Origin: Verrucomicrobiota bacterium JB022
GTDB taxonomy: Bacteria; Verrucomicrobiota; Verrucomicrobiia; Opitutales; Oceanipulchritudinaceae
Length of the DNA: 64,000 nt
Assembly (NCBI GenBank): GCA_030673845.1
Contig: JAUTCQ010000003.1
Location: 124,001-188,000, forward strand
Reading direction: 5' to 3'
Each line of letters begins with the position of its first letter. Position 1 is the stretch's first letter. The notes beneath the pieces were generated by a model. It did not search any database. It was not told the origin of the DNA and was given only the letters and a program-made list of their open reading frames with translations. Below are positions 6,350 to 53,564 of this stretch, piece by piece. Both the position numbers and the translations under genes were made by a program.

Positions 6350-7243
6350 ATGCCTTCCCACTACCACATGATGGCCCGCGCCATCGAGCGCCTGGCCGAG
6401 ACCGACGCGGAGCAGCTGCCGATGGAGACGGTGGCCGCAGAGCTGGGCCTGAGCCGCGCCCATTTTCAACGGCTGTTTGTCGACTACGTGGGCCTCAGCC
6501 CGCACCGCTACCGCCAGTATCTGCATCTGGAGGGCGCGAAAGCCGACTTGCGGGCAGGTGGCAGCGTGTTGGAGGCGGCGCTGGCGAACGGCTTTTCCGG
6601 CCCCGGTCGCCTGCACGATACGCTGGTTCAGTTCGAGAGCATGACGCCGGGCGAGTTCAAGCAAGGCGGGCTGCCGCTGGTCTGGGGCGTGCACGAGTCG
6701 ATCTTTGGCGCGTATCTGCTGGCCCTGTCGCCGCGCGGGATTTCGGCGCTGTTCTTCCTGGAAAACGCGGAAGCAGTGGAAGCCGCTCTGGCTGCCTTGA
6801 GTCGCCAATACCCGGAGGCAGCCCTGCGCCATGCGCCTGCCGAGACCGCGCCCGTAGCGGCCCGACTCTTCTGCCTCGCTGAGGGTGGCGACCCGGCCCC
6901 GCTGCGCTTGTGGGTGCGGGGGACCAATTTTCAGGTGCAAGTGTGGCGGGCACTCTTGCGCATCCCTACCGGCAGCTGCGTCAGCTACCGGCAACTGGCC
7001 GCGAGCTTGGGGCGCCCCAGTGCCAGCCGTGCGGTGGGGCAGGCGGTGGGGGCCAATCCCATCTCGTGGCTCATCCCCTGCCACCGGGTATTGCGAGGCA
7101 CCGGCGGGCTCAGTGGGTATCGCTGGGGCCCCGAGCGCAAGCGTCGCCTGCTGGCCTGGGAGCTGGCCCAAGAAAACGTCGCCCAACTGAAGCCAGCGGG
7201 CGACGACGAAATCTTCGCAGGTGCGAAAAGGATGCTGCCGTAG
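6350..7243 (+). CDS. AraC-type regulator fused to methylated-DNA-protein cysteine methyltransferase (Ada-like, without the N-terminal zinc domain)
   Basis: 297 residues in two parts. Residues about 5-105 form an AraC/XylS helix-turn-helix region (ELGLSRAHFQRLFVDYVGLSPHRYRQYL). Residues about 190-280 form an O6-methylguanine-DNA methyltransferase with the acceptor motif PCHRVLRG, Cys at about residue 244. E. coli Ada has an additional N-terminal Cys4 zinc module that repairs methylphosphotriesters and triggers activation; it is absent here. The protein therefore repairs O6-alkylguanine and may regulate genes without the usual methyl switch. Such two-domain forms are widespread. Convergent with the Sel1-repeat gene, only three bases apart. 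Confidence 0.9.
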   Translation: MPSHYHMMARAIERLAETDAEQLPMETVAAELGLSRAHFQRLFVDYVGLSPHRYRQYLHLEGAKADLRAGGSVLEAALANGFSGPGRLHDTLVQFESMTPGEFKQGGLPLVWGVHESIFGAYLLALSPRGISALFFLENAEAVEAALAALSRQYPEAALRHAPAETAPVAARLFCLAEGGDPAPLRLWVRGTNFQVQVWRALLRIPTGSCVSYRQLAASLGRPSASRAVGQAVGANPISWLIPCHRVLRGTGGLSGYRWGPERKRRLLAWELAQENVAQLKPAGDDEIFAGAKRMLP

Positions 7244-30511: not shown

Positions 30512-31504
30512 CTAGGCCTGGGCGGCGATTTGCTGGACCGCGCGCTCTTCGAATTCGCCCATCTGGCGATACTTCTGGTAGCGCTGCTCGAGCAAGGTCT
30601 CGGTGTCGAGGGCCATCAGCTCACCCAAATGCTGGGTGATGGCCTGGCGGACCTGCTGGGTGGCAAAGTCGATATCGCGGTGGGCGCCGCCGAGAGGCTC
30701 TTCAATCACCAGGTCGGCGATCTTTTGCTCCATCAGCTCGCGGGCGCCGAGGCGCAGGGCATTGGCGGCCGTCTCCGCAAATTCGCGGCTGCGCCAAAGG
30801 ATCGCGGCGCAACCTTCGGGCGGGATCACGGAGTAGTAGGCATGTTGCTGCACCAGCAGGCGGTCTACCACCGCGATGCCGAGCGCGCCGCCGGAGCCGC
30901 CTTCGCCGATGATCAGGCCGAGCAGCGGCGTCTTGAGGTGGGCCATCTCGCGCAGGTTGCGGGCAATGGCTTCGGACACGTGGCGCTCTTCGGAGCCGAC
31001 GCCTGCGTAGGCGGCCTTGGTGTCGATAAAGCAAATGACAGGCAACTTGAACTTTTCGGCCATCTGCATCAGGCGCAACGCCTTGCGGTAGCCCTCGGGG
31101 TGGGGCATGCCGAAGTTACGCTTGATGTTTTCCTTCACGTCGCGGCCCTTTTGCTGCGCGATGATCATCACCGGCTGCTCGCCAAACCACGCAGTGCCGC
31201 CGATCAGGGCCTGGTCGTCGCCAAAGGCACGGTCGCCATGCAACTCCTGAAAATCGCGGAAGATACGGTGGATATAGTCGAGCGCGAAGGGGCGCTTCGG
31301 GTGGCGGGCCAGCTGCACACGCTGCCAGGGCGTGAGATTCTGGTAGATATCCCGCTTCGTTTGCTCAATGCGTTGCTCGATCGCGACGACTTCCTTGGAA
31401 ACATCGAAGTGGTGTTCCTGTCCCGCGGTTTTCAGTTCATCGAGCCGACGCTTCAAATCGCGCAACGGCTTCTCAAACTCCAGAATGAATTCAGGCTGCT
31501 CCAT
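30512..31504 (-). CDS. accA: Acetyl-CoA carboxylase carboxyltransferase subunit alpha
   Basis: 330 residues. Partner of AccD in malonyl-CoA synthesis. Recognised by FEKPLRDLKRRLDEL at the N-terminus, HPKRPFALDYIHRIFRDFQELHGDRAFGDD, FGMPHPEGYRKALRLMQMAEKF, CFIDTKAAYAGVGSEERHVSEAIA and GEGGSGGALGIAVVDR, all standard AccA. accA and accD are 10 kb apart and on opposite strands. Here accA is the last of four minus-strand genes with short gaps (regulator, TPR, membrane protein, accA), which suggests operon control. Confidence 0.95.
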   Translation of the reverse strand: MEQPEFILEFEKPLRDLKRRLDELKTAGQEHHFDVSKEVVAIEQRIEQTKRDIYQNLTPWQRVQLARHPKRPFALDYIHRIFRDFQELHGDRAFGDDQALIGGTAWFGEQPVMIIAQQKGRDVKENIKRNFGMPHPEGYRKALRLMQMAEKFKLPVICFIDTKAAYAGVGSEERHVSEAIARNLREMAHLKTPLLGLIIGEGGSGGALGIAVVDRLLVQQHAYYSVIPPEGCAAILWRSREFAETAANALRLGARELMEQKIADLVIEEPLGGAHRDIDFATQQVRQAITQHLGELMALDTETLLEQRYQKYRQMGEFEERAVQQIAAQA

Positions 31505-31548: not shown

Positions 31549-32490
31549 TCAACCGCTGTGGCGGGGTAGGGGCGATTGGCGAAACGCTTCGGTGGTGTGG
31601 GGCGTGCAGAAAAAGGGCAGGATCAACAGTCCGAAGAGGCCGTAGCTCCAGCTTCGGATGGTGTCGTAAAGTTGCACTTCAGGAGGCAACCCTTCCGAAT
31701 TAGCCAGATCCGCAAACGCCCACATCATCCAGATATAGCCGCCCGCTGCGCCGATCAAAAGCACTCTCGTTGCCCGCAGCGGCAGCAACCCCCCGCGAAG
31801 CAGGACGATTCCCCAGGCAGCTGGAAGACTGGCCGCAAGCACCGAAAGAGGTAAAAGCGGGGTTCGTGTTGGATTTGCCAGCGTCGTCAGTGCCTGTGTA
31901 GCAACCAAGATAAGCGTGCAGTAGAGGAAAGGAGCTGCCAACAAGGAGCGTGGTTCCGCGCCCAGCCAGGCGAATGCCCGGTCGAGGGTGGACAAGGGCA
32001 CCCATGGTCTGTCGGGCTTGAGAGGGCTTGAACTCGGACGACCGTTGCGCAAAAACGCTTGTGTGGCAGAGTTGCTATAAAAGAAGGTCAGTAGAAATGG
32101 CGGAGGCAGCAAGAGAGCTAAAACTATTGCCGCGCGACCGTTGAGAGCCACGTCTGCTCCTGGGGGGAGGAGGGATATTACCACCGGAAGGTCAGAAAGC
32201 GTCGCAATTGCCAGCGCCACTGCACAAACCAAATAGAACCACGCGAGATAACGGAGGTAGCTCAGCGTCATGAAGCTGCCCCGCATAATCAGGATTCCCA
32301 ACCCGAGATACAGCCCGACATGAAGAGCTGCCATGGGGGCTTGGCTGCCGCCTTCCGGCGCTAGCACGATGAAAGGTGCCCAGTCCGCCAATTCCCAAAT
32401 TCCATAAGCGGAGACGATGCTGCCAAGTGCAGTGCGCGGGTCTAGGCGCAGCGCCGTGATCAGCCGATCCATAAAGGAGGTAAGTATCAT
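31549..32490 (-). CDS. Multi-pass membrane protein of unknown function
   Basis: About 313 residues with roughly eight hydrophobic segments, for example VGLYLGLGILIM, FYLVCAVALAIATL, IVLALLLPPPFLLTFFY and VLLIGAAGGYIWMMWAFADL. There is no transporter or enzyme motif that I recognise. The ATG at 32490 is preferred over a TTG at 32508. It is 44 bases upstream of accA on the same strand and 57 bases after the TPR gene. Composition is slightly less GC-rich than its neighbours. A lipid- or envelope-linked role is suggested only by position. Confidence 0.75.
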   Translation of the reverse strand: MILTSFMDRLITALRLDPRTALGSIVSAYGIWELADWAPFIVLAPEGGSQAPMAALHVGLYLGLGILIMRGSFMTLSYLRYLAWFYLVCAVALAIATLSDLPVVISLLPPGADVALNGRAAIVLALLLPPPFLLTFFYSNSATQAFLRNGRPSSSPLKPDRPWVPLSTLDRAFAWLGAEPRSLLAAPFLYCTLILVATQALTTLANPTRTPLLPLSVLAASLPAAWGIVLLRGGLLPLRATRVLLIGAAGGYIWMMWAFADLANSEGLPPEVQLYDTIRSWSYGLFGLLILPFFCTPHTTEAFRQSPLPRHSG

Positions 32491-32547
32491 CGGATGGGCG
32501 TTGATCAACTAGCAGGCTCACCATTCAACGCTCCGGGGAACGCGCTT

Positions 32548-32895
32548 CTACTCATCGTCGTCGCGCTGACCGCTGAGTTCGGCTTTCCAGCCTTTGATGC
32601 GGGCTTGCGCGCCGTGGTGCTCGGCCTGCTGCTTGTCGCCGCGCTCCATATAAATGCGGGAGAGGGTGGTGTGGATGTGCGCCTGGTCGGGGTCGAGCTT
32701 CAGGGCTTCCTGGGCGGCGGCGAGAGCGTCGTCGAGCTGGCGCTGGTCGAAGTGGACCTCGGCCTTGGCCAGCCAGGCATCGAAGCACGCGGGGTCTTGC
32801 GCCAGGGCCTGCTCGATGAGCTGGAGGGCCTTGGCGTGGTCCCCCATCGTGAATTCGAAGGTTGCTTCGTCGACCAGTGCGCGCACGTCTGCCAT
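32548..32895 (-). CDS. Small TPR protein
   Basis: 115 residues from the ATG at 32895. Three tetratricopeptide units: FEFTMGDHAKALQLIEQALAQDP, AWLAKAEVHFDQRQLDDALAAAQEALKLDP and HTTLSRIYMERGDKQQAEHHGAQA, with an acidic tail. No signal peptide, so a cytoplasmic adaptor. A longer frame to 32958 is Pro-rich and unlikely. It begins 68 bases after the stop of the regulator at 32964 on the same strand, so it may bind that regulator or the membrane protein downstream. Confidence 0.83.
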   Translation of the reverse strand: MADVRALVDEATFEFTMGDHAKALQLIEQALAQDPACFDAWLAKAEVHFDQRQLDDALAAAQEALKLDPDQAHIHTTLSRIYMERGDKQQAEHHGAQARIKGWKAELSGQRDDDE

Positions 32896-32963
32896 GGGGG
32901 AGCACGCTGGGGAAGGCGGAGGCGGGGTGCAAGGCAAACTGTGCCCTGTGGCGCCCATCGGTG

Positions 32964-34436
32964 CTACTTCCAGCGCTTGATGAATTGGTGGACGGCCTGG
33001 GGCGTGATCTTGAGCAGGCGGGCGGCTTCGCTCTGGTTGCCCCGCGACTCGTCGAGCGCTTTGCGGACGATGCGGCTGCGCAGCTCGCTCATGTAGGTTT
33101 CGAGCGAGAACTCTTCCGTAAAGTCTGGCAACATGAGCCCGTTGGCTTCGTTGACGTTGGGGGCCCCACCTTCGGTCGAAAGGTCGCGCGGGTGAAGCAC
33201 TTCGTCGCGGGCGTAGAGGGCGGCGCGCTCGATTGCGGCGTGGAGGTCTTGCAGGTTACGGCTCCACACCTGGTTTTCGAGGAATTCGAGGGCCTCGACG
33301 GTCAGGCGCTTGGGGTGGCGCAGCGAGCGGTTGATGCGGGCGAGGAAGTGCAGGGCCAGCTTGGGGATGTCGGTGCGGCGTTCGCGCAGGGCCGGGAGGA
33401 TGATTTCCCGGTCGGCCACGAGGTCGTGCAGCTCCTGGATCAGCAGCTTGCTGCGCAGGCTGCGGGCGGGTTGCAGCTCGGTGCCGAGGATGAGGCGCAC
33501 GTTGCGCGGCTGGTCGTCGCTGGATCCTTGGGGGCGCACCACACCATCGCGCAGGTAGTGGACGAGCGCTTCCTGGATGTGGGTGGGCAGGTTTTCGAGG
33601 TTGTAAAGGTAGAGCGTGCCGTTGTGGGCGAGGCCCATTTTGCCGTCGTCATCCTGCCGGGCGCCGACGAAGGCACCTTTAATGTGCCCGAAGAGCACGC
33701 TGTCGAGGTAGTGTGAGGGCAGGTGGTTGCAGTTGACCCACACAAAGTCGAAGTCGCGACGGTCGCCCATGCGGTGGATGAGGCGGGCGAGGGCTTCGCG
33801 TCCGGTGCCCACTTCGCCGCGCAGCAGCAGCACGCCGTCGTGCGCAGCGAGGCTCAGGGCAGCATCGAGGGCCTGGAGGTAGGCTGGGTGATTGCCGATG
33901 CAGCCCAGCTCTTCCATCACATACTCCAGCTGCGGCGGCGAAGACTCGCGCAACATGGAGGCGCGCGGGATCGTGTCGAGCCGGAGTTGTTCGATGCGCG
34001 GGCCGCTGAGGGGCAGGCGCTGCGAGACGCCTACGCGGAAGACTTCGGCGGGCAGGGAGCCTTCTTCCACCAGCGTCCGCCAGACAGACATGATGGAGTT
34101 GCTCTCTTCGTTGCAGGCGATGCGGACGGTGTCGAAAGGGAAGGCGCGGAGTAGCCGGTGCGCCTCCTGGCGCATCTCCTGCAGCAGCTCTTCGCGGTCG
34201 GTCGGGTTGCGCAGCGCCAGCGGGCGGATTTCGCAACTAAGCTCAGGGTGGGCCTGATTCAGTGCCGCACGCAGCGTCTCGTCCTGCCCGGCATGGGGGG
34301 GCAGCAGGTAGACGATACAGTGGTCGGGCCGTTGGTCGGAGAGAAACGACAGCAATGGACCCGCCTGCTCCTGATGAGCCAGGAGCCCGGGCATATAGGG
34401 GTCATGGTGATCTGCGATCGCGAGTACGAGGTCCAT
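32964..34436 (-). CDS. Degenerate sigma-54-activator-like regulator with CARF/RtcR-like N-terminal region
   Basis: 490 residues. Residues about 1-150 resemble the CARF-type sensor of RtcR in layout: CIVYLLPPHAGQDETL, SCEIRPLALRNPTDREELLQEM, and IACNEESNSIMSVWRTLVEEGSLPAEVFRV where CARF proteins have the S/T-G-T loop. Residues about 170-400 are an AAA+ domain of the bEBP type, but its key sites are changed: Walker A GEVGTGRE (207-214, Lys to Arg), GAFVGA instead of GAFTGA (254-259), and GTLYLYNLE instead of GTLFLDEIG (273-281, Walker B Asp and Glu lost); the arginine-finger region reads LIQELHDLV. The Fis-type helix-turn-helix at the C-terminus (GNQSEAARLLKITPQAVHQFIKRW) is intact. I infer a DNA-binding regulator that neither hydrolyses ATP nor contacts sigma-54. 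Confidence 0.82.
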   Translation of the reverse strand: MDLVLAIADHHDPYMPGLLAHQEQAGPLLSFLSDQRPDHCIVYLLPPHAGQDETLRAALNQAHPELSCEIRPLALRNPTDREELLQEMRQEAHRLLRAFPFDTVRIACNEESNSIMSVWRTLVEEGSLPAEVFRVGVSQRLPLSGPRIEQLRLDTIPRASMLRESSPPQLEYVMEELGCIGNHPAYLQALDAALSLAAHDGVLLLRGEVGTGREALARLIHRMGDRRDFDFVWVNCNHLPSHYLDSVLFGHIKGAFVGARQDDDGKMGLAHNGTLYLYNLENLPTHIQEALVHYLRDGVVRPQGSSDDQPRNVRLILGTELQPARSLRSKLLIQELHDLVADREIILPALRERRTDIPKLALHFLARINRSLRHPKRLTVEALEFLENQVWSRNLQDLHAAIERAALYARDEVLHPRDLSTEGGAPNVNEANGLMLPDFTEEFSLETYMSELRSRIVRKALDESRGNQSEAARLLKITPQAVHQFIKRWK

Positions 34437-34446
34437 GCGGTATCAA

Positions 34447-34483
34447 CTCAGGTTTAAATGCTATAATCTACATTTAAACTGAG
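34447..34483. promoter_or_regulatory. Operator-like palindrome upstream of the degenerate regulator
   Basis: Arms CTCAGGTTTAAATG (34447-34460) and CATTTAAACTGAG (34471-34483) pair over 13 bases with one bulge around a 10-base AT-rich spacer. The spacer contains TATAAT on the plus strand. The left arm begins 11 bases before the regulator's ATG, so a bound protein would block its transcription or translation start. Autoregulation is an inference. Confidence 0.6.
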
Positions 34484-34810
34484 CCTCACTTTGCTAGCTA
34501 TTAGAGGTAGAGTGACGGCTGGCGCGACCGAGGGTGCGTCAAGTTAGTTTTTTCGCAAATCGTTGATTTAGAAGTGGGATGCATGGATAAAGATGAGTGT
34601 TTATCTGGCGGATGGAAAGATTGGAGCAAGCTTTTGAGGCGCTGGCATCTCCACCGCGTTCATGTCGCAGGCCATTGTGACCGTGGTGGTTATTGCGTTC
34701 GTTATATTGAGTTACGAAGGTCGTTTGGCAAGTCCTGAGAGAGGCTTTCTTCTACCAAATGGATCGGCTTCCAGCTTGCCACCGGCAGGGCCAGTCATCC
34801 TCATGGGGAG
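34484..34810. other. Intergenic region before the SET-domain gene
   Basis: About 327 bases, less GC-rich than the genes. A short frame beginning at 34662 (MSQAIVTVVVIAFVILSYEG) has a hydrophobic start but runs into the SET gene and ends in low-complexity sequence; I do not accept it as a gene. No terminator is visible. Confidence 0.4.
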
Positions 34811-35437
34811 ATGCAGAGTACCGGAGGAGCAAAAACAGCGACGGCCCCCGAGACGGTAGTGGCCGTAAACGAGCTGCTGGAGCTGCGCCGATCGGCCATT
34901 CACGGGCAGGGGATCTTTGCCCGGGTGGACATCGCCCAGGGCGCCCGCCTCGTCGAATACGTCGGGGAGAAGATCGACAAGGAAGAGAGCAACCGGCGCG
35001 GCCTTGCGCAGTTTGACAAAGCGCAGCAGACCGGCGAGGCCGCTGTTTATATCTTTGACCTCGACGACGAGTGGGACCTCGACGGCGATGTGCCCGATAA
35101 CTACGCCAAGTTTATCAACCACTCTTGCGAGCCCAACGCCGAGGCCGTCAACGAAGACAACCGCCTCTGGATCTTTGCGCTGGCCGACATCCCCGCTGGC
35201 GGCGAAATCGTTTTTGACTACGGCTACGACATCGAGCATTACCTCGACCACCCCTGCCGCTGCGGCACCCCGAGCTGCGTCGGCTACATCGTGAGCCGCG
35301 TGCAGTGGCCCAAGCTCCGCCGCATCCTCACCCGCACCCGTGCCGCCCAGAAGCGTGCCGCTGCGGAGAAGGCAGCCCAGAAAACCGCCAAGAAGACGAA
35401 AAAGACCAGCCGCAAGGGCACCCGCAAATCCTCATGA
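34811..35437 (+). CDS. SET-domain protein lysine methyltransferase with histone H1-like tail
   Basis: 208 residues. The SET fold is complete: SAIHGQGIFARVDIAQGARLVEYVGE at about 28-52, FINHSCEPNAE (the NHS...PN cofactor motif) near 106-115, and GEIVFDYGYD near 135-145, followed by a post-SET zinc site CRCGTPSCVG. The enzyme transfers methyl groups from S-adenosylmethionine to lysine; the bacterial target is unknown. Residues about 165-208 are Lys/Ala/Arg/Thr rich like the tails of histone H1-like proteins, suggesting DNA binding. The stop overlaps the start of exonuclease III (ATGA), so translation is coupled. Confidence 0.88.
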   Translation: MQSTGGAKTATAPETVVAVNELLELRRSAIHGQGIFARVDIAQGARLVEYVGEKIDKEESNRRGLAQFDKAQQTGEAAVYIFDLDDEWDLDGDVPDNYAKFINHSCEPNAEAVNEDNRLWIFALADIPAGGEIVFDYGYDIEHYLDHPCRCGTPSCVGYIVSRVQWPKLRRILTRTRAAQKRAAAEKAAQKTAKKTKKTSRKGTRKSS

Positions 35438-52079: not shown

Positions 52080-53564
52080 ATGCCTTCCCAAGGACTCTCC
52101 CAAGTCCAGAAACAGACCCAGTCTCTGGTTCTCGCCCCCCAGTTGCGGCAGAGCCTGAAGATCCTGCAAGTGCCCACGCTCGAACTGCGCAACGTCATCC
52201 TCGAGGAGCTGCAAACCAACCCGGCCCTCGAAGAGCTGCCGATGGACGAGATGAGCCTCGAAGCCCATGTCGACGACAAGACTGAAAAGGCGGAGCAGAA
52301 GGAGACGGAAGAGACCGCGCTGAGCGAAAACGGCACGACCGATGGCGATCTCGATTTCAGCGACGAGTTCAACATCCTGCGCAAGCTCGATGAAGATTGG
52401 CAGAACTACTTCCGCGAAGAGGCAGGCGAATACGAATTTACGAGCGACGACGCCAAGCGCCGCCAGCATTTCTTCGACTCCCTTACCGGTGATACCTCGC
52501 TCCAGGAAAATCTGATGGAGCAGGCCCGCCTGCAGGAAGCGGACGACGAGACGATGGCTGGCCTCGAATACCTCGTGGGCAGCCTCGACAACAACGGCTT
52601 CCTCAACCTCAAGCTCAACGATGTGGCCCTGCTGGCCAACCTGCCGTTGAAGAAGGTCCAGGAGGCCGCCCGCCTGCTCAAGACGCTGGAGCCGGCCGGC
52701 ATTGGCGCGGAGAACATCCGCGAGTGCCTGCTCATCCAGCTCAAGGCGCAAAACCGCGGCAAGAGCCTCGCCGCCAGTATCATCCGCGACCATTGGGACT
52801 TGCTCAAGCGCCGCCGCCTGCCCGACCTCGCCCGCAAGCTCGGCGTCTCGGTCGATATGGTGCAAAGCGCGGTGGAAGAGATCAGCCGCCTCGACCCCGC
52901 GCCGGGCCGCCGCTTCAGCGACGACACCAACCGCGTGATCGTGGCCGACGTGACGGTGGAGCAGGACGACAACGGCGAGTGGATCATCCACCTCAACAAC
53001 GATTACATCCCCCGCCTGCGCATCAGCACCGCCTACAAGCAGATGCTCGCCAAAGGCGTGCTCAAGGGGAAGGAAAAGGAATACATCCAGGACAAGTTCC
53101 GTAGCGGCAAGTTCCTGATCAACAGTATCGAGCAGCGCCAGCAGACGATCGAGCGCATCACCCGCGAGCTGCTCAAGTTCCAGTCCGACTTTTTTGAATA
53201 CGGCACCAGTCAGCTCCGCCCGCTCACCATGAGCCAGGTGGCCGATGCCGTGGGCGTGCACGAGACGACGGTCAGCCGCGCCATCGCCAATAAATACATC
53301 CGCACGCCGCAAGGGGTCTTCGAGTTCAAATACTTCTTTACCCCCGGCTATCAGGGGCAAGACGGTCAGGCGGTCTCCAACAAGTCCGTCAAGGAGCGCA
53401 TCGGCAAGATCATCGAAGGCGAGCCGCCGAACAAGCCCTACAGCGACCAGGCGATCGTCGAGATCCTCAAGGAAGAAGGCGTCAGCATCGCCCGCCGCAC
53501 CGTGGCCAAATACCGCGAGGAGATGGGCATCCTGCCGACGAATCTGCGCCGCCGCTACGCTTAA
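52080..53564 (+). CDS. rpoN: RNA polymerase sigma-54 factor
   Basis: 494 residues. Region I is Gln/Leu rich (QKQTQSLVLAPQLRQSLKILQVPTLELRNVILEEL), followed by an acidic region II, the core-binding part with LEPAGIGAENIRECLLIQLK, the helix-turn-helix (TMSQVADAVGVHETTVSRAIANKYI) and the RpoN box ARRTVAKYRE at about 471-480. It directs RNA polymerase to -24/-12 promoters and needs bEBP activators. No ptsN, lptB or hpf lies next to it, unlike in proteobacteria; instead it follows a Ser/Thr kinase. Confidence 0.96.
   Translation: MPSQGLSQVQKQTQSLVLAPQLRQSLKILQVPTLELRNVILEELQTNPALEELPMDEMSLEAHVDDKTEKAEQKETEETALSENGTTDGDLDFSDEFNILRKLDEDWQNYFREEAGEYEFTSDDAKRRQHFFDSLTGDTSLQENLMEQARLQEADDETMAGLEYLVGSLDNNGFLNLKLNDVALLANLPLKKVQEAARLLKTLEPAGIGAENIRECLLIQLKAQNRGKSLAASIIRDHWDLLKRRRLPDLARKLGVSVDMVQSAVEEISRLDPAPGRRFSDDTNRVIVADVTVEQDDNGEWIIHLNNDYIPRLRISTAYKQMLAKGVLKGKEKEYIQDKFRSGKFLINSIEQRQQTIERITRELLKFQSDFFEYGTSQLRPLTMSQVADAVGVHETTVSRAIANKYIRTPQGVFEFKYFFTPGYQGQDGQAVSNKSVKERIGKIIEGEPPNKPYSDQAIVEILKEEGVSIARRTVAKYREEMGILPTNLRRRYA

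Follow-up and report, generated by a model that had tools for sequence, protein, structure and literature searches.

A CARF-type regulator with a predicted dead sigma-54-activator motor and a conserved upstream palindrome in a Verrucomicrobiota bacterium

Enhancer-binding proteins are textbook examples of ATP-driven machines. One of them, RtcR, the activator of rtcBA, is built of a CARF domain, an AAA+ domain and an HTH, and the same domain order is found in a regulator from Verrucomicrobiota bacterium JB022 that is described here. Its gene lies in a contiguous stretch of 64,000 nucleotides, which was analyzed as a whole and is called the window in the following. However, the window regulator differs from RtcR in several respects: it reached a score of 179.8, compared with a cut-off of 650 for NCBIfam NF038308, both the motor and the SGT motif have been lost, and neither rtcA nor rtcB adjoins the gene, the neighbors of which encode a TPR protein, AccA, a SET-domain protein, an exonuclease III-like protein and a PIG-L protein.

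Outside RNA repair, the closest published group consists of the RtcR-like CARF-NtrC-HTH proteins, which were linked to restriction-modification in 2014 (PMC4012209) and were described together with CoCoNuTs in 2024 (PMC11090510). A first reading of this DNA, made from the sequence only, had held that a CARF-type sensor that is linked to accA and belongs neither to CRISPR nor to RNA repair would be new, but sensors outside these two settings had as such already been reported in both publications. The proteins of this group are predicted sigma-54 activators, whereas the window regulator lacks a motor and is encoded beside the TPR and accA genes. Loss of the sigma-54 contact loop, combined with action without sigma-54, is known for Caulobacter NtrC, Rhodobacter capsulatus NtrC and VpsR (PMC10274813), and the contact motif has likewise been lost in the window regulator. 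In contrast to these proteins, which have receiver domains, the window regulator has a CARF domain, and it has additionally lost Walker A, Walker B, sensor I and the arginine fingers, while the length of its L1 loop is retained (GAFVGA). The N-terminal domain shares its fold with Csm6, Can2, Cad1 and Csa3; however, those proteins bind cyclic oligoadenylates and bear effectors or a winged HTH, whereas the window regulator is devoid of the SGT motif. Regulators lacking GAFTGA are therefore known as a kind, and what is new about the window regulator is that it has a CARF sensor and that its motor has been lost so completely. In the open-licence literature, no paper on motor-less CARF members was found. 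The features of the locus are compiled in Table 1.

Table 1. Positions of the regulator, its domains, its neighbors and its upstream region in the window
Feature	Position	Strand	Basis or remark
CARF-pseudoAAA+(bEBP)-HTH regulator, 490 aa	32964..34436	-	ORF, Pfam, alignment with relatives
N-terminal CARF domain, ~residues 1-159; EES (110-112) in place of SGT	33960..34436	-	structure model, profile, alignment
sigma-54-activator AAA+ core and lid, ~residues 179-422; catalytic and sigma-contact residues gone	33171..33902	-	
Fis-type HTH, ~residues 457-490; recognition region TPQAVHQFIK	32967..33068	-	Pfam, alignment, dN/dS 0.12
TPR protein, downstream of regulator, same direction	32548..32958	-	likely true start 32895
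accA, acetyl-CoA carboxylase carboxyltransferase alpha	30512..31504	-	
SET-domain gene, divergent from regulator	34811..35437	+	exonuclease III-like gene next
rpoN	53079..53555	+	sigma-54 DNA-binding domain match
palindrome GTTTAAAT-N12-ATTTAAAC, proposed operator (or RNA hairpin)	34452..34479	.	16-43 bases before start codon
block conserved with 5H around palindrome	34441..34484	.	most of intergenic region diverged

Motor motifs and the N-terminal domain

The regulator is encoded by a single uninterrupted frame, in which the CARF domain is followed by a sigma-54-activator AAA+ domain, its lid and a Fis-type HTH. Pfam matches were obtained for Sigma54_activat (1.9e-35), AAA_lid_14 (5.4e-15) and HTH_8 (7.5e-6). 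The motif sites were numbered by counting from an alignment with intact relatives. In this alignment, the Walker A lysine is replaced by R213 (GEVGTGRE), the threonine of the GAFTGA loop by V257 (GAFVGA, with unchanged L1 loop length), the aspartate and glutamate of Walker B by Y278 and N279, the sensor-I asparagine by E320, and the two arginine fingers by I333 and L339. Thus, the losses in Walker A, GAFTGA, Walker B and the arginine-finger region that the sequence-only reading had listed were all borne out, and the loss of the sensor-I asparagine was added. The same reading had regarded the AAA+ scaffold and the HTH as intact, in agreement with the Pfam matches and with a fold comparison, in which the AAA+ domain matched FlrC, NtrC1 and FleQ at Z ~30 and VpsR at Z 27.2.

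The same genome served as a control. It contains 13 other activator-like matches, and the ten strongest of these mostly have intact motifs at the motor positions. Therefore, the motif loss is neither a genome-wide habit nor a sequencing artefact. The occurrence of rpoN in the window shows that the genome encodes sigma-54. Most likely, the window regulator is a former sigma-54 activator whose motor is dead, and it is predicted to be inactive as an ATPase. As its AAA+ fold and lid are conserved and intact activators are present in the genome, it could in principle join or compete with one of the latter and block it in the manner of a dominant-negative subunit. However, the closest intact paralogue is only ~33% identical, which makes mixed oligomers unlikely, and no pointer to a partner was found, so that such a role is very improbable.

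For the N-terminus, a structure model was generated that was based only on the window protein and its orthologue from a congener, 5H (pLDDT 71). A Foldseek search of the PDB with this model yielded Csm6 as the best hit (E 2.8e-5) and Csm6, Can2 and Cam1 as the best matches. VIA-align also placed Csm6 on top (Z 13.9, 153 residues), and the other listed entries were CARF or CARF-related. A profile built from nine relatives matched Csm6' in the PDB at 4.2e-9 and Csm6 at 1e-4. The intact relatives matched Pfam RtcR (5.4e-11 to 4.8e-8) and Csm6_CARF, and RtcR was their best or second-best NCBIfam model. The profile of the window and 5H proteins was aligned with the CARF profile of the intact relatives over residues 1-135 with a probability of 97.9%; used alone in a sequence search of the PDB, however, it found no CARF chain. 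The CARF link is thus based on the intact relatives and on the structure. Together with the RtcR-like kinship, the modeled fold supports a CARF domain at the N-terminus, as had been suspected from the sequence. The strand-4 SGT motif, which is found in most intact relatives, is replaced by EES, a change that the sequence-only reading had missed, and thus the usual CARF ligand may not bind. For this reason, a nucleotide or RNA-derived signal, which had been suggested initially, is less likely, and the question arises which signals are sensed by CARF domains that lack this ligand motif.

Selection since the motor loss and the locus in relatives

The congener is Puniceicoccaceae bacterium 5H (L019), whose family belongs to the order Opitutales. 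Its regulator is 78% identical to that of the window and carries the same replacements of motor residues. The identical replacements indicate that the motor loss predates the split of the two, and the comparison of both genes therefore gauges the selection that acted after the loss. The overall dN/dS was 0.164/0.605 (~0.27), with values of 0.238/0.816 for the CARF domain, 0.127/0.457 for the AAA domain and 0.071/0.584 for the HTH (0.12). As judged by these substitution rates, all domains have been under purifying selection since the motor loss, and the HTH most strongly so.

Slow decay of a gene with no function left would be in line with the loss of all motor motifs and of the SGT motif, with the absence of the regulator from most genera of its family, and with a constraint that is weaker than on any other gene in the comparison, save where dS was saturated. 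In addition, the 5H gene, which stems from a metagenome assembly, contains an insertion of ~67 bases with a partial repeat (L019:4400-4540) that causes a frameshift ahead of the HTH; this insertion may be an error of the assembled genome or real decay. However, all 490 codons are open in the window, dN/dS after the loss is low and lowest in the HTH, the upstream palindrome is conserved, and motor-less forms persist at full length with an intact HTH in g9 (G013-G015, another genus of the same family), and are also kept in G319 from another family. Decay is therefore considered unlikely. The narrower case of a single decayed copy, which the sequence-only reading had named as a refutation of its own view, was mostly decided in favor of that view: the losses shared with 5H and the overall dN/dS speak against a single decayed copy, although 5H carries the frameshift and intact orthologues are present in another family.

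In the g9 regulators, the Walker A lysine is still present, but GAFTGA, Walker B and the arginine fingers are missing; in at least two of the three, the gene follows an uppP-like gene. A change of Walker B to xNxEN is common to most members of window, 5H and g9, and the grouping of these proteins was supported by 98/94 when all alignment columns were used. Without the AAA+ columns, window and g9 were not recovered as one clade, nor was such a clade rejected (p-AU 0.216). In terms of these alignments, one shared motor loss for window/5H and g9 is likely, but not proven. In G319 (L063:6471-7976, minus strand), which is found near a groEL-like gene, the SGT motif is intact, and the GAFTGA loop and Walker B have been lost. 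A single clade of all six motor-less proteins was rejected (p-AU 0.0115), and thus G319 represents a separate loss.

Orthologues with an intact motor are present in G046 and G076, which belong to another family, and the locus order is again regulator, TPR gene and accA in one direction. The window protein, with a predicted dead motor but a retained sensor fold, scaffold and DNA-binding end, and its intact relatives at the same locus form a natural before-and-after experiment, which bears on how a sigma-54 activator becomes another kind of regulator. Family relatives without the regulator still keep the TPR gene and accA together, several of them with divergent SET and exonuclease genes. The linkage to accA therefore belongs to the locus, and the tie between regulator and accA, which the sequence-only reading had mentioned, is positional. 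Two further intact relatives, G011 and G037, are situated before HsdR-like genes. At L026:~6400-6680, and at the same place in L033, the intact regulator gene and the TPR gene are separated by a small conserved ORF (~60 aa), which is absent from the window. Between its TPR gene and accA, the window contains an ORF of 319 aa with a TTG start (31549-32508), which has no Pfam match and is missing from the 5H locus.

The upstream palindrome and a proposed mode of action

The G046 locus contains a perfect -24/-12 site, TGGCACGGCAATTGC, which is directed toward the divergent gene. Two -24/-12 matches were found at this locus, compared with 0.03 expected by shuffling, and the second is inside the regulator gene. 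With the pattern used, neither the intergenic regions on either side nor the 64-kb window as a whole contained a -24/-12 promoter. The divergent gene of G046 encodes a PAS-domain protein, which was not found in the window genome by a search that had no positive control. A sigma-70 consensus promoter was not found in the region.

The region upstream of the window regulator contains the palindrome, which had gone unnoticed in the sequence-only reading. Its zero-mismatch form occurs only once in the whole genome of 4.35 Mb. In 5H, it is retained with 1 mismatch within an otherwise diverged intergenic region. The window contains three TTTAAA hexamers, and two of them are the half-sites of the palindrome. 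TTTAAA pairs recur before the start codons of intact relatives: the positions are -42/-22 in the window and 5H, -55/-33/-21 in G046 and -43/-31 in G025. Among 5000 shuffles, these pairs were equalled by 0 for the window, 6 for 5H, 1 for G046 and 89 for G025. The recognition region of the HTH is almost identical to those of G046 and the motor-less g9 proteins, and reads SPQAVHQFIK in intact relatives. The recurrence of the half-sites suggests that DNA binding has been conserved. Despite nearly the same HTH, no TTTAAA was found in 40 kb of the three g9 relatives, and thus the site is not universal.

We propose, with a probability of about 0.5, that the window protein is a sigma-54-independent autoregulator, probably a repressor, which acts without ATP hydrolysis at the palindrome upstream of its own gene. 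This proposal is based on the loss of all motor motifs in a genome with rpoN and intact activators, on the constraint on all domains and most of all on the HTH, and on the conserved palindrome. On this view, the motor of an RtcR-like CARF-AAA+-HTH activator would already have been dead when its genus diverged, and the protein would no longer remodel the sigma-54 polymerase. The retained HTH and AAA+/lid scaffold would enable a dimer or a larger oligomer to bind to the palindrome, and binding would autoregulate, probably repress, a putative transcription unit of regulator and TPR gene, perhaps also including accA. A signal in the CARF domain would alter the binding. The simplest reading of the comparison is that DNA binding and autoregulation outlived the death of the motor.

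Enhancer-binding proteins that lack GAFTGA and are active at sigma-70 promoters, some of them without ATP hydrolysis, and autorepression by such proteins have been documented (PMC10274813). The window protein could therefore also be an activator at sigma-70 promoters, like R. capsulatus NtrC or VpsR, instead of a repressor; VpsR is among its fold matches, and the scaffold is conserved. However, R. capsulatus NtrC has been reported to need ATP binding, whereas here the P-loop lysine, Walker B and both fingers are gone, and the palindrome is at a place that is typical of a repressor or autoregulator and not of an upstream activator. Activation at sigma-70 promoters thus seems improbable.

The conserved palindrome might also form an RNA hairpin for the control of translation and not be an operator. 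In the window, the predicted stem has -19 kcal/mol and a z of -3.65. However, z is only -1.17 for 5H, in which two changes result in an A-C mismatch and a G-U pair, and the TTTAAA pairs of G046 and G025, at similar distances from the start codon, are differently spaced and form no comparable stem. A role as an RNA hairpin is therefore rather improbable, and autoregulation at an operator remains our preferred reading.

A palindrome with 2 mismatches upstream of the biotin protein ligase gene (L071:1500-1528) was a tempting second target, because this enzyme serves acetyl-CoA carboxylase. It was not conserved in 5H, and genome-wide copies with up to 3 mismatches were no commoner than those of a reversed control pattern, so that the idea of a second target was dropped.

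Further CARF-type proteins in the order

It is conceivable, albeit doubtful, that the sigma-54 motor was repeatedly given up by CARF-type activators of this order, which thereby became switches of sensor, scaffold and DNA-binding domain that need neither ATP nor sigma-54. Such proteins would form a class of their own among the CARF transcription factors, which is tied to a lipid-synthesis locus in the case of the window.

Eight loci of the same order, from genomes of ~0.7-1.3 Mb (L045, L046, L047, L048, L052, L054, L056 and L057), encode proteins of 320-403 aa with a CARF-like domain and a shrunken pseudo-AAA domain, but without an HTH. Apparently, the same loss has gone further in these proteins. 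In most of the small genomes, rpoN is still present.

A CARF search of viral contigs found no relative. IMG/VR contigs classed as viral (L075, L078 and L079) bear intact CARF-AAA+-HTH activators. RtcR proper is also present in the order, with an intact motor (L049, L051, L053, L055, L058 and L059), and its gene mostly adjoins a gene whose product starts with MANKTLF and is presumably Ro60-like.
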